This document shows positions 34,985-49,552 of a stretch of DNA of 64,000 nt, one piece after another. Under the pieces are notes generated by a model. It was not told where the DNA came from. It searched no databases and saw only the letters and a program-made list of their open reading frames with translations. The position numbers and the translations under genes were made by a program. Location: contig NZ_CP136921.1 of NCBI RefSeq assembly GCF_033100095.1, forward strand, positions 342,501 to 406,500, written 5' to 3'. Numbering within the stretch: position 1 is the stretch's first letter; every line of letters begins with the position of its first letter. The DNA comes from Diaphorobacter limosus (GTDB taxonomy: Bacteria > Pseudomonadota > Gammaproteobacteria > Burkholderiales > Burkholderiaceae_C).

Positions 34985-34987
34985 GCC

Positions 34988-35153
34988 TTGTACAGCAACA
35001 CGGAAATATCGAAACATGAAAGCGCGCCTTCGCCCCCATGGCGGCGTTGCAAATCCTCGCGATAGCTACGGCTATCGCTGCGGTTTGCGCCTTGCCCTGG
35101 GCGCGAATCCATCACTTTCATCTTGTTCCGATACCTCCGTGTCGCTGTACTAG
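34988..35153. mobile_element. MITE-like element A, copy 1
   Basis: About 166 bp with imperfect inverted ends: TGTACAGCAACACGGA at the left, TCCGTGTCGCTGTAC at the right. The similarity continues inwards to TGAAAG / CTTTCA, about 34 bp per arm. The centre has a second palindrome GCGATAGC-TACG-GCTATCGC. No transposase. A second copy at 45914-46080 differs at only a few internal positions. It fills most of the gap before gshA. Confidence 0.8.
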
Positions 35154-44429: not shown

Positions 44430-45884
44430 ATGGCCACGCCCGCGCCCATCTCCATCGACGACATCACCGCGCTCGACGCCAGCGCGCTGTCGCAAGCCAT
44501 TCATGCCCGCAGCGTCTCCTGCCGCGCCGTCATGCAGGCCTACCTGGCGCGCATCCAGCGCCTGAACCCGCGCTACAACGCGCTGGTTTCGCTGCGGCCC
44601 GAGGACTATCTGCTGGCCGATGCCGATGCCTGCGACGCTGAGCTGGAGCGCGGTCAGTCGCGCGGCTGGATGCACGGCATGCCGCAGGCGATCAAGGACC
44701 TGTCCAACGCTGCCGGCCTGCCCACCACGCTGGGTTCGCCGCTGATGCGGGGCTTCGTCGCCAACGAGGACGGGCTGATGGTCGCGCGCATGAAGGCGGC
44801 CGGCTGCATCGTCATCGGCAAGAGCAACACGCCGGAGTTCGGCCTGGGTTCGCACACCTTCAACCCGGTGTTCGGCACCACGCTGAACGCCTATGACCCC
44901 GCCAGGTCGGCCGGCGGCTCCAGCGGCGGCGCGGCCGTGGCGCTGGCGCTGCGGCTGCTGCCGGTGGCCGACGGTTCGGACTTCATGGGCAGCCTGCGCA
45001 ACCCGGCGGCCTGGGCGAACATCTTTGGCTTCAGGCCCAGCCAGGGCCGCGTGCCCATGTGGCCGGCGCAGGACGTGTGGATCAGCCAGCTGGGCACCGA
45101 AGGCCCCATGGGGCGTAGCGTGCGTGACCTGCAGCGCCTGCTGGCGACACAGGCGGGCTGGTCGCCAAATGCTCCACTATCAATAGCTGAAGGCGCTTAT
45201 CCTGAAATGGCTGGCGGCCTGTTTGATGTCAAATCCACGCGCATCGCCTGGCTGGCTGATCTGGACGGCTACCTGCCCATGGAGCCCGGCATTCTGGACA
45301 TATGCGCCCAGGGGCTGCGGCGCCTGGAAAGCCTGGGCTGCAGCGTGCAGCCCTGCGCCCTGGGCATGCCGCCCGAGCGCGTGTGGCAGGCCTGGCTGGT
45401 GTGGCGGCGCGTGCTGGTGGCGTCGCGCATTGCCCCCTTCCTGCTGAAGGAGGGCAACCGCGCCCATATCAAGCCCGAGGCGCTGTGGGAGCATGACCAG
45501 GCGGCGCAGGTCAGCGGCGCCGATTTCATGGGCGCCAGCGTAGCGCGCACCAGCTTCTACCAGCAGCTGCTGCGCCTGTTCGAGCACCATGACGTGCTGG
45601 CCCTGCCCAGCGCCCAGGTGTGGCCCTTCGACGCTGCCGAGCGCTGGCCGGAGCAGATCGCCGGCTTGGCCATGGACAGCTACCACCGCTGGATGGAGGT
45701 GGTCATCTACGCCACCTTTGCCGGCCTGCCCTGCATCAGCGTGCCCACCGGCTTCAATGCCCAGGGCCTGCCCATGGGGCTGCAGCTGATCGGCCGGCCG
45801 CACGGTGATGCGGCGCTGCTGGCCTTGGCAGCGGCCTACGAAGGGGCGATAGGGGACTGGCTGGCGGTGCGGCCGGGGGCCTGA
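44430..45884 (+). CDS. Amidase-signature family hydrolase
   Basis: 484 residues. The Ser-cisSer-Lys triad is visible: K in MPQAIKDLSN (near 89), S-rich SAGGSSGGAAVALALRLLPVADGSDFMGSLRNPA with cis-Ser and nucleophile (near 165-190). No GatA-specific context; likely a catabolic or broad amidase. An AT-rich, rare-codon stretch at 45163-45214 (PNAPLSIAEGAYPEM) looks like the dispersed short repeat embedded in the gene. ATG 44430. Confidence 0.88.
   Translation: MATPAPISIDDITALDASALSQAIHARSVSCRAVMQAYLARIQRLNPRYNALVSLRPEDYLLADADACDAELERGQSRGWMHGMPQAIKDLSNAAGLPTTLGSPLMRGFVANEDGLMVARMKAAGCIVIGKSNTPEFGLGSHTFNPVFGTTLNAYDPARSAGGSSGGAAVALALRLLPVADGSDFMGSLRNPAAWANIFGFRPSQGRVPMWPAQDVWISQLGTEGPMGRSVRDLQRLLATQAGWSPNAPLSIAEGAYPEMAGGLFDVKSTRIAWLADLDGYLPMEPGILDICAQGLRRLESLGCSVQPCALGMPPERVWQAWLVWRRVLVASRIAPFLLKEGNRAHIKPEALWEHDQAAQVSGADFMGASVARTSFYQQLLRLFEHHDVLALPSAQVWPFDAAERWPEQIAGLAMDSYHRWMEVVIYATFAGLPCISVPTGFNAQGLPMGLQLIGRPHGDAALLALAAAYEGAIGDWLAVRPGA
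45170..45212. repeat. Short palindromic repeat-like tract inside the amidase gene
   Basis: ACTATCAATAGCTGAAGGCG then CTTATCCTGAAATGGCTG, matching the ATAGCTG...GCGCTTATCC core of the family. It is read in frame with rare codons CTA, TCA, ATA. One palindrome arm is eroded. Candidate only. Confidence 0.45.
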
Positions 45885-45913
45885 ACGCACGCCAGCCTCC
45901 CTGCCGGCTATGG

Positions 45914-46080
45914 CTAGGACAGCAACCCGGAAATATCGAAACATGAAAGCGCGCCTTCGCCCCCATGGCGGCGTTGCAAATCCTCGCGATAGCTACGGCT
46001 ATCTCTGCGGTTTGCGCCTTGCCCTGTGCGCGAATCCATCGCTTTCATTGTGTTCCTCTACTTCCAGGTTGCTGTACTAG
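45914..46080. mobile_element. MITE-like element A, copy 2
   Basis: About 167 bp, internal ~110 bp nearly identical to the copy at 34988. Ends: CTAGGACAGCAACCCGG left, CCAGGTTGCTGTACTAG right, so CTAG stands at both extremities. The right end overlaps the last codon of the SNase-like gene and provides its TAG stop. The rest of the gap 45885-46076 holds nothing else. Confidence 0.8.
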
Positions 46081-46517
46081 GGCCGCAGGTACTGGCGCCG
46101 ATAGTCCCAGGGCGCCAGCGGGCGCTTTTGCGCCCACAGCCCCTGGCCATTGGCGCGTGCCTGGCGCTGCAGGGCCACTAGCCTGGGGTGCTGTTTTGCC
46201 TGCGGCGCATACACCCAGGCCAGGCCGGCGCGCAGCTGGGCCGTGGCCACGTCCTGGCCTTGGCAGCGCACATGGGCCAGGGTGCGGCCGTAGCTGTCGT
46301 GGCCCAGGCGGTACAGCCGCGCCTGCTGGCGAAAACACAGCCGCGCCAGGTTCTGGCGCGCGCGCTGGCCAAAGGCCTGGCGGCTCTCGGGGGCATCAAC
46401 GACGGCGATGCGCACGCGCTCCTGGCGCCAGGCGCCGGGCGCGCCGCAGCGCGCGCTGAGGGTGTCGCCGTCGTGGATGGCGACAACCAGGCAGAGCAGG
46501 GCGGTAGAGGCGGGCAT
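46077..46517 (-). CDS. Thermonuclease-family (SNase-like) protein
   Basis: 146 residues. The family active site can be read: first Asp in IHDGDTLSA (near 17), Arg/Glu in VRIAVVDAPESRQAFG (near 36-50), and Arg in YGRTLAHVRC (near 77). A short hydrophobic start (MPASTALLCLVVAI) may be a weak signal or membrane anchor. The C-terminal WDYRRQYLRP stops at a TAG supplied by MITE-like element A. Predicted extracellular or periplasmic nuclease. Confidence 0.8.
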   Translation of the reverse strand: MPASTALLCLVVAIHDGDTLSARCGAPGAWRQERVRIAVVDAPESRQAFGQRARQNLARLCFRQQARLYRLGHDSYGRTLAHVRCQGQDVATAQLRAGLAWVYAPQAKQHPRLVALQRQARANGQGLWAQKRPLAPWDYRRQYLRP

Positions 46518-46687
46518 GGGGGCGGCGGCAGGACAAAAGGGGGCGCACTATACCCGCTGCGGGCCGCGGCCATGGTCGCGGCAGGCGCTGCCTAAAAAAT
46601 CAGCGATGCGCTGCAGCCCAATACCGGCGCGGCTTGGGGCTGGTTGTACCGGTGGTTTTCCACAGGGCCGCCCACAGGCCGTGGGCA

Positions 46688-47014
46688 TAACCCTAGAAAC
46701 GGCAGTTGACCGCTTTCAAACTTCACGAAAGCCGCGTGAATATTGAGGTTTGCTGCTTCGTCGGCACTCACCTGTGGGGCGACAACGCTACGCTACTTGT
46801 CAGTACCGCGCTCGCCGCGCCATGCGGCGTTGCTCCTCCTTGCGGGCAGTAGCCCGCTGCGGCGTCCCCCTTGCAGGGCGCGGTCCCGCCAGAGGCGGAA
46901 CCCGCTCATGCCGTCCAAGGGTGCACAGGCACCCTTGGAGCCGCGGCATTCGCCCTTGCCTGGCACGCCGATCACGGCACTGCCAAGCATGTCCAACTGC
47001 CGTTTCTAGGGTAA
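46688..47014. mobile_element. 321-bp MITE with perfect 18-bp inverted ends
   Basis: Left end CCCTAGAAACGGCAGTTG (46691-46708) and right end CAACTGCCGTTTCTAGGG (46994-47011) are perfect inverted repeats, flanked by TAA on both sides (46688-46690, 47012-47014), a likely target duplication. Inside are further hairpins: TCCAAGGGTGC-ACAG-GCACCCTTGGA (46914-46939) and GCGGGC-AGTA-GCCCGC (46842-46857). No transposase; the small internal open frame has no known features. It fills most of the 550-bp gap between the SNase-like and RarD-like genes. Confidence 0.85.
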
Positions 47015-47067
47015 CTGCGCCCGCCGATGACCGACAATCACCGGTTTTCCTCGCAGCCCCCATACCC

Positions 47068-47949
47068 GTGTTCAAAGGTCTTGTAGCGTCCGTCGTGGCG
47101 TCGGTTTTGTTTGGCGCCATGTACTACCTGGCGCCCCAGCTGGCGCCGCTCGATGGCGAGCAGATCTTCGGCTGGCGCGTGCTGGCCACGCTGCCCTTCA
47201 CCACCGTGCTGCTGCTGGCGCTGGGCCAGTGGCGGCGCGTGCGCCTGCTGCTGCGGCGCGCACGGCGCCAGCCGTCGTTGGCACTGGGGCTGCTGGCCAG
47301 CGCGGCGCTGCTGGGCGTGCAGCTGTGGCTGTTCTTGTGGGCGCCGCTGCACGGGCGCGCGCTGCCGGTGTCGCTGGGCTACTTTCTGCTGCCGCTGGTG
47401 ATGGTGCTGGCCGGGCGGGTGCTGTACCGCGAAAGCCTGACCGGCCTGCAATGGCTGGCCACGCTGCTCGCGGGCGCCGGCGTGGCGCATGAGGTGCTGC
47501 GCGCCGGCGGCATGTCGTGGGAGACCTGGCTGGTCGCCCTGGGCTACACGGCGTACTTCGTGCTGCGCCGCCGTCTGGCCACCGACCACCTGGGCGGGCA
47601 CTGGCTGGACATGCTGCTGCTGGTGCCCGCGGCCCTGTGGTTCGTGGCGCGCGCGCCCTCGTCGCTGGGCCTGGTGGCCGGCCACCAGCACCTGTGGGCC
47701 ATGGTGCCGGTGTTGGGCCTGGTGAGCGCCGTGGCGCTGGCGCTGTACATGGCCGCCAGCCGGCTGCTGCCGCTGGGCTTGTTTGGCCTCTTGAGCTATG
47801 TGGAGCCGGTGCTGCTGGCCCTGGTGGCGCTGGCCCTGGGCGAGAGCATTGGCCGCGAGCAGTGGCCGAGCTACGGGCCCATTTTCGCGGCCGTGGGCGT
47901 GCTGGTGCTCGATGGCGCACTGCGCCTGGGCCAGTCGCAGAAAGTTTGA
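47068..47949 (+). CDS. rarD: EamA/RarD-family transporter
   Basis: 293 residues, ten predicted membrane helices in two EamA halves. GTG 47068 gives the conserved RarD N-terminus: FKGLVASVVASVLFGAMYYLAPQLAPLDGEQIFGWR. The second half ends GLFGLLSYVEPVLLALVALALGE. RarD proteins are drug/metabolite transporters of uncertain substrate. The start codon lies 57 bp after the 321-bp MITE, so its promoter may lie within or be altered by that element. Confidence 0.85.
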   Translation: MFKGLVASVVASVLFGAMYYLAPQLAPLDGEQIFGWRVLATLPFTTVLLLALGQWRRVRLLLRRARRQPSLALGLLASAALLGVQLWLFLWAPLHGRALPVSLGYFLLPLVMVLAGRVLYRESLTGLQWLATLLAGAGVAHEVLRAGGMSWETWLVALGYTAYFVLRRRLATDHLGGHWLDMLLLVPAALWFVARAPSSLGLVAGHQHLWAMVPVLGLVSAVALALYMAASRLLPLGLFGLLSYVEPVLLALVALALGESIGREQWPSYGPIFAAVGVLVLDGALRLGQSQKV

Positions 47950-47955
47950 TGGAAA

Positions 47956-48008
47956 TACGGCCGTAGCGCCCGTGGGATAAGCGTTAACAGCTCTTTTTTT
48001 GATAGTTT
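47956..48008. repeat. Short palindromic repeat, copy 9
   Basis: GGCCGTAGCGCCCGTGGGAT then AAGCGTTAACAGCTC, a T-run and TGATAG. Its right half encodes the last residues of RluE (PNYQKKSC) on the minus strand; its left end starts just after the rarD stop. Confidence 0.75.
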
Positions 48009-48589
48009 GGTACGTCGGCATCGGCCCAGCAACCGGGTGCCAGGCCGTCCAGCCGGTACGGCCCAATGGCCGCGCGCACCAGGCGCAGCGTGGGGTGACC
48101 CACGGCGGCCGTCATGCGGCGCACCTGGCGGTTGCGGCCTTCGCGGATGATGAGCTCCAGCCAGCAGTCCGGGATGTTCTGGCGCACGCGTATCGGCGGG
48201 TCGCGCGGCCACAGCGTAGGCGGCGGGTCTAGCCGGCGCACGCGCGCGGGCAGGGTGGGGCCGTCGTTCAGCGCCACGCCATGTCGCAGCGCATCCAGTG
48301 CGGCGTCGTCGGGAATGCCCTCGACCTGCACCCAGTAGGTCTTCTCCATCTTGTGGCGCGGGTCGCTGATGCGCGCCTGCAGGGGGCCGTCGTTGGTCAG
48401 CAGCAGCAGGCCCTCGCTGTCGGCGTCCAGGCGACCGGCGACATAGACGCCGGGCTCGGTGATGAAGTCCTTGAGGCCACGCCAGCGCCCCTCGGGCGTG
48501 AACTGGCTCAGCACGCCGTAGGGCTTGTTGAAGCGCAGCAGGCGCGGGGCGGCGGGCGCCGGCCGGTGCAGCGTGGGGCGCTGGCTCAT
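47984..48589 (-). CDS. rluE: 23S rRNA pseudouridine synthase RluE-like
   Basis: 201-residue RsuA-family enzyme without S4 domain, as in RluE (U2457 of 23S rRNA). [15 protein letters not shown], the catalytic [19 protein letters not shown] (near 51) and [12 protein letters not shown] are diagnostic. The C-terminal tail beyond DADVP comes from the short palindromic repeat. ATG 48589, 9 bp after the M23 peptidase stop, so the two are probably co-transcribed. Confidence 0.88.
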
Positions 48590-48598
48590 GTGGTCAGG

Positions 48599-49552
48599 TC
48601 ATGCGGGCAGGAACAGGGCCGGATCGACCATGCTGCGGTTCAGCATCACGCCCCAGTGCAGGTGCGGGCCCGTGACGCGGCCGGTGGCGCCCACGCGGCA
48701 AAACGCCTGGCCGGTGGCGAGCTGCTCGCCCACGGCGCAGTCCACGCCGCTGAGGTGGCAGTACATGCTGAGCAGGCCGCCGCCATGGTCCAGCCAGACC
48801 GTGCCGCCGTTGAAGAAATAGTCGCCCACGTCGATCACCCGGCCCGGCAGCGGTGCCACCACGGGCGTGCCGGTGGCGGCCGCTATGTCCATGCCGCTGT
48901 GCGGGTTGCGCGCCTGGCCGTTGAACACGCGGCGCAGTCCAAAGCTGCTGGAGCGCCGCCCGGGCACGGGCTGGCGCATGCGCAATGCGTCGGCCGGCAA
49001 CGGTGTGGAGAAGGTGGCCATGACGCGCTGCTGGTGGTCGCGCTCGCGCTCGTAGCGGGCCTGATCCTCGGGCGAAAGATCCACCGTGCGCGGCGCCACG
49101 TTCAGGCGTTGCTCGCGGTACTTCTTGGCCGCCACCTGATAGGCGATGCGCCGCGCCGGCGCGCCGTCCGTGGCCTGCACGCTGACATGGGCCTGGCCCA
49201 CGGGCGCGGCCAGCGGTATGCCGACGATGGCCGTCCAGGCGCTGGCATCGCCCAGCACCAGCACCGGAATGTCGCCGGCATGAACCACCGGACGCTCGGG
49301 CGCCGGGCCCAGCGCCAGCCGGGCCACGCCGCCGGGCACCTGCAGCGCCTGGGGCCATGGGCCTGGGGTGGCGTCCTGGGCCAGCGCTGCGCTGGCGGGC
49401 AGCAGCGCCAGGCCCATGGCTTGCAGCATGGTGCGGCGCTGGCAGCCGGATCTGGCAGAGGGGAGGTGATGGGGCAGATATGGCACGGCGGGCAGTGTAG
49501 AGCGGCGCCATGGCGCCAGAGGCGGGGCGATGCAAAAAGGCAAGGTTCTCAT
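48599..49552 (-). CDS. M23-family peptidoglycan endopeptidase
   Basis: 317 residues. The N-terminus has RRTMLQAMGLALLPASAALAQ, a Tat- or Sec-type signal when the start is ATG 49552; ATG 49429 would remove the twin arginine. The C-terminal LytM domain has zinc ligands in NPHSGMDIA (HxxxD) and GPHLHWG (HxH). It cuts peptidoglycan cross-links or activates amidases. Similar proteins act in cell division or remodelling; specificity unknown. Confidence 0.88.
   Translation of the reverse strand: MRTLPFCIAPPLAPWRRSTLPAVPYLPHHLPSARSGCQRRTMLQAMGLALLPASAALAQDATPGPWPQALQVPGGVARLALGPAPERPVVHAGDIPVLVLGDASAWTAIVGIPLAAPVGQAHVSVQATDGAPARRIAYQVAAKKYREQRLNVAPRTVDLSPEDQARYERERDHQQRVMATFSTPLPADALRMRQPVPGRRSSSFGLRRVFNGQARNPHSGMDIAAATGTPVVAPLPGRVIDVGDYFFNGGTVWLDHGGGLLSMYCHLSGVDCAVGEQLATGQAFCRVGATGRVTGPHLHWGVMLNRSMVDPALFLPA

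Follow-up and report, generated by a model that had tools for sequence, protein, structure and literature searches.

The intergenic region between rarD and an SNase-like nuclease gene in Diaphorobacter limosus contains a 319-bp element that is, with high confidence, a non-autonomous element (MITE) of a betaproteobacterial family with IS1380-family (ISEcp1-type) ends, most likely moved in trans and enclosing a structured hairpin. Little doubt remains that it is a MITE and that its ends are of the IS1380 type. The element has defined ends and a target duplication, is present in three copies in its genome and in many copies in relatives, faces an empty site in related species, and has autonomous counterparts whose ends and duplication are of the same kind, all of which agrees with the transposed, non-autonomous element proposed in a first-pass annotation of this DNA. 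Such a MITE is ordinary in kind; what it adds is a tie between a widespread betaproteobacterial MITE family and IS1380-type transposases.

Borders, copies and insertion site

The features that define the insertion are listed below, in coordinates of the window, by which we mean the whole 64,000-nucleotide stretch of DNA that was analysed.

46692..47010, no strand: MITE of 319 bp, the long form of a 234-bp core element, delimited by comparison of other copies and by the empty site of relatives
46692..46708, plus strand: left terminal inverted repeat of 17 bp, CCTAGAAACGGCAGTTG, of the IS1380-family kind
46994..47010, minus strand: right terminal inverted repeat of 17 bp, identical to the left one when reversed
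46687..46691, no strand: ATAAC, the target duplication of 5 bp on the left side, as judged from the empty site GGGCATAAC in G002, G003, G004 and G005
47011..47015, no strand: GTAAC, the duplication on the right side, which differs at one base
47068..47949, plus strand: rarD, an EamA-family transporter gene with a GTG start (TIGR00688, 197.6 bits against a cut-off of 130.15)
46077..46517, minus strand: SNase-like nuclease gene (PF00565)

Perfect 17-bp inverted ends, CCTAGAAACGGCAGTTG, bound the 319-bp element, and the duplication that flanks it, ATAAC/GTAAC, matches at 4 of 5 positions. The first-pass annotation had described a 321-bp element with 18-bp ends; the bases that it named, CCCTAGAAACGGCAGTTG at 46691-46708, are exactly inverted at 46994-47011, and the inverted match runs one base further, to 19 bp (ACCC...GGGT). 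Comparison with other copies places the borders at CCTAG...CTAGG. Because the copies share the end CCTAGAAACGGCAGTTG or a near form of it, and the sequence outside varies as a direct repeat, we moved the border inward by one base on each side, so that the inverted match stands and the lengths become 319 and 17 bp. The TAA noted earlier does flank both sides, but not as a duplication of 3 bp: read across the copies, the outer C/G, like the 18th and 19th matching bases in general, and the TAA are part of a 5-bp duplication of the form NTNAN. A search of the window for the 19-bp end, allowing 3 mismatches, gave these two places only, and 100 shuffled sequences gave none.

The element is 64.3% GC and is much more stably folded than shuffled DNA (z -8.75), and both interior hairpins described in the annotation, at 46914-46939 and 46842-46857, are perfect when the sequence is read. 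None of the open reading frames overlapping the element is transposase-like by eye, which bears out the earlier statement that no transposase lies inside; the element is short, has terminal inverted repeats and lacks a transposase, as MITEs do. An open reading frame of its own was rejected as a candidate, the minus-strand SD-like stretch and ATG not being conserved, by eye, across all copies.

Three copies, including that of the window, occur in the D. limosus genome (one contig of 4,099,615 bases), the other two being 234 bp long and located at 659415-659648 and 2051613-2051846. The second genome of the species (G099, 82% complete) has the same three copies and a fourth, which is missing from G000; since the same TTCAG site is occupied by a copy in G001, we do not read this difference between G099 and G000 as a recent jump. 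More widely, the element or part of it matches 20 of 99 genomes including its own, some of them over an end or the apical part only.

At the locus itself, both genomes of the species are filled; five other species of the genus were compared, and all of them are empty (7 genomes in all). In four of these relatives (G002, G003, G004 and G005) the empty site is resolved to the base, with GGGCATAAC leading on towards rarD without the element; in G001 the element is likewise missing and the upstream part has diverged. Since both genomes of D. limosus are filled and the five other species are empty, the element probably arrived after D. limosus had diverged from those five. The search for empty sites that the annotation had suggested therefore found them in all five, precisely in four, and the pattern that it had set against transposition, one locus filled in all relatives and no further copies, is not what we found.

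The element occupies the intergenic region shared by the divergent rarD and SNase-like genes, and parts the conserved GGGCATAAC stretch from rarD. The RarD-like transporter with a GTG start is indeed downstream as annotated, but its distance changes from 56 to 57 bp when counted from the corrected end to the start at 47068. A simple consensus scan found no sigma-70-type promoter in 46500-47120, nor one in the empty region of G002, and the idea that the element brought in a promoter for rarD was dropped. In an exploratory survey of neighbour orientation with a home-made ORF caller, 43 copies were listed, 2 without coordinates were skipped and 41 were examined, among which 39 could be classed, 1 was undecided and 1 lay inside an ORF. 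In this exploratory set the gene 3' of the structured strand (defined below) was convergent in 29/39 copies, often stopping, by the same home-made calls, a few bases from the element; the other side gave 20 to 19, without bias.

Across the bacterial family, the exact ends occur in 28 of 299 genomes, against 2 matches of the reversed pattern. From 63 fetched loci we retained 54 elements, no two of them identical, that measure 60-420 bp, have CCT/AGG as their outermost bases and reach 13/17 end matches or more; left out were duplicates, elements whose outer bases had changed and loci that gave no pair of ends, and the 54 include two copies of the genome's own loci from the other genome and a few nested copies that were mispaired. 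The flanking duplication is perfect (5/5) in 25/54 copies and matches at 4/5 or better in 42/54, and 12/54 have at most 3 matching bases, some of these being the mispaired nested copies. Random re-pairing of the flanks, repeated 2000 times, gave means of 3.2 (5/5) and 14.5 (at least 4/5), with maxima of 10 and 24. In the duplication flanks, position 2 is T in 101/108 and position 4 is A in 101/108, giving NTNAN. Exactly 234 bp is the length of 28/54 elements, and plasmids in Polaromonas sp. P1-6 and in Caballeronia grimmiae carry 234-bp relatives; the phages searched gave no match. The same ends also bound other elements: a second MITE type of 176-177 bp with an interior that differs by eye, in the genome with 57 exact ends (G027; L132-L135), and elements of 86 bp (L114) and 115 bp (L130).

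IS1380-type transposases as the likely mover

The first-pass annotation had called for a transposase with the same ends, and IS1380-type elements of this description were found, at one of the fetched loci (L124), in two genomes that also hold MITE copies (G039 and G019) and in a wider scan. Twenty loci had been fetched because one end lacked an exact partner, and most had a mismatched second end nearby. Among them, L124 is a 1657-bp element with the MITE ends (3 mismatches on one side) that encodes a 542-aa DDE transposase; the protein reaches the IS1380 transposase model NF033539 at its 180-bit cut-off and PF13701 above cut-off. L124 has no flanking duplication, with at most 1/5 bases matching. 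G039 and G019 each carry an intact transposase of the L124 clade with the same kind of ends, in addition to their MITE copies. Three further loci (L120, L127 and L131) were rejected as autonomous partners, having no second end at up to 3 mismatches and, by eye, nothing transposase-like among the longer ORFs listed. A gene in G027 (L144) that is IS1380-like and 28% similar was also set aside, as it is flanked by another inverted repeat, TTAGCCCGGATATTTCACC....

Scanning named genomes with an alignment of the transposases of L124, G039 and G019, we took the best 79 of 464 loci, 74 of which have sequence on both sides. In these 74, 99/148 ends match the MITE end at 14 or more of 17 positions, compared with none in a reversed-pattern control (maximum 13), and CCT is present at both ends in 70/74. 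Where flanks were available among the same best 79 of 464 loci, the 5-bp duplication was perfect in 44/65 and NTNAN fitted 126/130 flanks. The ends of an element in Paraburkholderia elongata match at 17 and 16 of 17 positions, with CTCAC on both sides. End variants of the MITE have IS counterparts, CCTAAAAACCTCAGTTG being present in the MITEs of G078 and in Thauera (L268). Betaproteobacterium UKL13-2 (CP012157.1; L208-L218, L220-L222 and L246) contains no fewer than 15 IS1380-type elements, possibly from a recent burst, and a 5/5 duplication flanks 11 of these.

Insertion sequences of the IS1380 family share both the ends and the 5-bp NTNAN duplication with the MITE, and their transposase is therefore its likely mover; judged from these sequences, that an IS1380-type transposase moved the element is the natural reading. 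In the D. limosus genome, no transposase of the L124 clade and no match to the IS1380 model was found, so the element seems to be without its mover there now, and it is for this reason that we infer the identity of the mover. The IS1380 model matches 2 of the 7 genomes of the genus: G003, with one intact IS1380 gene (31% identical to the query over part of its length) and two weaker partial matches, and G001, with a single weak match. Comparing the MITE with IS DNA by blastn, we found that nearly all of the matches listed lie at the ends and that none is clear beyond ~20-30 bp; by this comparison, the interior is not an IS remnant.

In the course of events that we consider most likely, an IS1380-type DDE transposase supplied in trans would bind the two 17-bp ends and move the element, and insertion at an NTNAN site would duplicate 5 bp. 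In D. limosus, its arrival in the rarD-SNase intergenic region would probably postdate the separation from the other five species.

The interior hairpin and its apical core

The interior is characterized by a long hairpin, of which the following features of the window are relevant:

46786..46998, minus strand (the structured strand): conserved long hairpin region with hand-set limits, interrupted by an 85-bp insert
46867..46951 (+-2 bp), no strand: insert of ~85 bp, missing from the 234-bp copies by alignment, which carries the 46914-46939 hairpin
45914..46080, minus strand: member of a second palindromic repeat family, 167 bp, with ends CTAGTACAGCAACC/CTAGGACAGCAACC and the same apical core
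34987..35153, minus strand: second-family copy with the same core module

Aligning 24 copies from many genera (A2), we obtained a single structure in which 30/56 pairs changed on both sides in one copy or another. A second alignment (A3; 31 sequences, ~130 nt adjoining the right end, on the other strand) gave both-sided change in 34/43 pairs, with 95.9% of cells pairing; shuffled controls reached 20.1 +- 2.2 pairs and sliding the partner 8 to 19. The sequences are related, with several per genome, so these covariation figures, as well as the strand figures below, are not probabilities.

On the structured strand, leaving out the pairs of the end repeat, A3 contains 163 G-U against 8 A-C, with the same lean in 30/31 sequences. 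Because that structure had been predicted on the very strand being counted, we repeated the count on the structure of the opposite strand. There, helices 3, 4 and 6, those with both-sided changes, give 7 G-U and 30 A-C, favouring the minus strand; the end repeat has little bias (5 G-U, 8 A-C); and helices 2 and 5, in which no pair changed on both sides, point in the opposite direction (43 to 1, 44 to 0), bringing the total over all helices to 99 G-U against 39 A-C. The strand bias therefore depends in part on the helices chosen. As independent evidence, folding is better on the structured (window minus) strand in 24/24 copies, with a mean of -131.9 versus -110.2 kcal/mol. Compensatory change, combined with better folding on one strand, leads us to propose that the hairpin of the 234-bp copies probably functions, or once functioned, as structured RNA or single-stranded DNA.

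Searching Rfam 15 with window positions 45000-49000 and with sets of 5 and 13 loci, we found nothing at or above gathering score. A covariance model of the hairpin (R1), whose E-values are rough, matched 53 of 148 genomes including its own at E up to 1e-4, across several families of the order. It had no match in 40 IS1380-type loci, comprising 36 of the best 79 together with L124, L138, L139 and L142, one of which is decayed and at least one element of which was entered twice. An integron attC site, for which the motif GTTGGAC was considered, was rejected since, by eye and against the attC consensus, the motif is on the wrong arm.

In the window copy, R1 matches only 46816-46882, and the insert falls inside the conserved GGCAAGG stretch of the core; it has probably damaged the hairpin core of this copy. 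G027 and G005 also have long forms, 318-320 bp in length and flanked by duplications that match at 4/5 or 5/5, indicating that the long form too moves as a unit. The hairpin part of the insert (query 199-268) stands alone in the D. limosus genome at L010 and L011 (1926082 and 305322) with 79-81% identity, and the insert may thus derive from another dispersed repeat.

The apical core of the hairpin, GGCAAGGCG...GCAACGCC or a near version, is also found in two other palindromic repeat families and in one further palindrome of the D. limosus genome, all with different ends. The second family, with ends around CTAGTACAGCAACC that are CTAG...CTAG-like, has eight near-full copies in the D. limosus genome, and R1 picked out both of its copies in the window. 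A third set (L328-L330, near 1726441, 3646595 and 3225624) combines other ends with the near core version GGCTAGGCG, and the palindrome L331 (near 3915274) has the same core between ends of yet another kind. In G001, the copy of the IS1380-type MITE has the exact second-family core arms, GGCAAGGCGCAAACCGCAG and GCGAGGATTTGCAACGCCGC (39 bases), suggesting exchange between the families.

Across the class, the pattern GGCAAGGCG(28-46)GCAACGCC occurred in 42/274 genomes, with three or more matches in 13, compared with 7 matches of the reversed control; several of the single matches read like chance coding sequence. In 18/20 inspected class cores, the core sits inside a larger inverted repeat of ~93-229 bp with differing arms, these arms having been called at 12/14 or better without a control. 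In a table of 34 cores, the inner stem alternates between A-T, T-A, G-C, C-G or adjacent G-A/A-G; the cores were hand-picked by eye as hairpin-like, and the table therefore leans towards structure. Two hairpin elements of ~100 bp (L347 and L349) lie head to head, with the same core, different arms and 53 bp between the cores.

We raise, tentatively and as the less probable case, a wider interpretation: a structured module, probably RNA, consisting of GGCAAGGCG, a variable stem built of alternating Watson-Crick pairs or of G-A pairs in tandem, and GCAACGCC, could be the cargo of several MITE families that unrelated transposases move, exchanged among them and spread class-wide. If true, this would be either a selfish RNA that rides any available transposase or an RNA of host function dispersed by MITEs. 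If the structured module is kept across genera and is common to repeats with different ends, selection may act on the interior of a MITE and not on its ends alone. A structured module with a probable strand preference, present in differently-ended repeats, is the part that specialists would not expect.

Alternative readings and known systems

Template switching is an established mutational mechanism that corrects the arms of long imperfect palindromes. The covariation of the hairpin could therefore be unselected, with palindrome arms that corrected themselves at replication mimicking compensatory change, and the elements are indeed long palindromes whose strand bias hinges in part on the helices counted. 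We consider this a possible but rather unlikely account: template switching would erase imperfections, whereas, by eye, bulges next to GGCG/CGCC and adjacent G-A mismatches turn up repeatedly in different genera, and it would favour neither G-U pairs at the expense of A-C on a single strand (163 to 8) nor better folding on the structured strand in every one of the 24 copies. Somewhat less likely still is a hairpin that is merely DNA architecture for the transposase, serving subterminal binding or end pairing, with no RNA or separate function. Its position next to the right end, and its presence inside elements with such ends in the copies aligned or checked, fit such a role, but the 40 IS1380-type loci possess transposase and ends without an R1 match, and the apical core is also present in repeats with unrelated ends.

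The remaining two alternatives concern the element as a whole. A palindromic, intergenic sequence could be an ancestral intergenic structure, a terminator or regulatory palindrome, and not an insertion; the precise empty site in four relatives, the copies elsewhere and the restriction of the element at this locus to the species' two genomes among the genus' 7 make this the least probable reading of all, close to negligible. The annotation had also raised kinship with the Acinetobacter MITEs found on either side of class 1 integrons. Both are ascribed 5-bp duplications, GTTGC and TCCAT in the Acinetobacter case, and both lack a transposase, but the Acinetobacter element, as the excerpted text of PMC3934969 describes it, is AT-rich (72.2% AT), longer (439 bp) and has other ends, which match no known IS, whereas the element here measures 234 or 319 bp, is 64.3% GC and combines IS1380-type ends with NTNAN duplications. 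Set apart by this published description, the link is unsupported and kinship very improbable.

A transposed, IS1380-ended MITE with a structured interior remains our preferred reading, and the IS1380 family is among its closest known counterparts. ISEcp1, the known mover of beta-lactamase genes, belongs to the IS1380-type group (PMC9330008, in excerpt). In the available portions of PMC12116815, the left repeat of ISEc9/ISEcp1 is given as ACGTAGAATCTAGG, i.e. CCTAGATTC... from outside, with a 5-bp duplication, and the family's target duplication as 4-5 bp. On these partial accounts, IS1380, ISEcp1 and ISEc9 have the same outer end, CCTAGA..., and the same 5-bp duplications as the MITE; the MITE differs in lacking a transposase and in its unrelated interior. 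Two ISEcp1 duplications quoted in papers, TATGA and AGGCA, do not fit the NTNAN of the MITE and its transposase clade. As a candidate IS1380 derivative, the element thus has the ends and the duplication length, and has neither an IS-derived interior nor a cognate transposase in the same genome.

Among MITEs, a 234-bp relative of the window element resides on the plasmid of Polaromonas sp. P1-6 mentioned above. A MITE was reportedly described in Polaromonas sp. JS666 by Mattes et al. in 2008, and it may belong to the same family; the window MITE may accordingly be either the first member seen of its family or a known family described anew. In the accessible text of the open-licence literature we found no description of an IS1380 MITE, although an earlier account may exist, and the end and core sequences, searched there as text, gave an unrelated match only.

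By description, the element also resembles the structured MITE-like repeats of other bacteria, among them bcr1-bcr18 of Bacillus cereus, Correia, ERIC and the QMITE of Coxiella, which excerpts of PMC3446304 and PMC10969869 portray as short, dispersed and strongly folding, and some of them as transcribed. The MITE shares the first three of these properties. Those repeats belong to other hosts, and the MITE described here is distinguished from them by its link to IS1380 and by a core that it has in common with differently-ended repeats.
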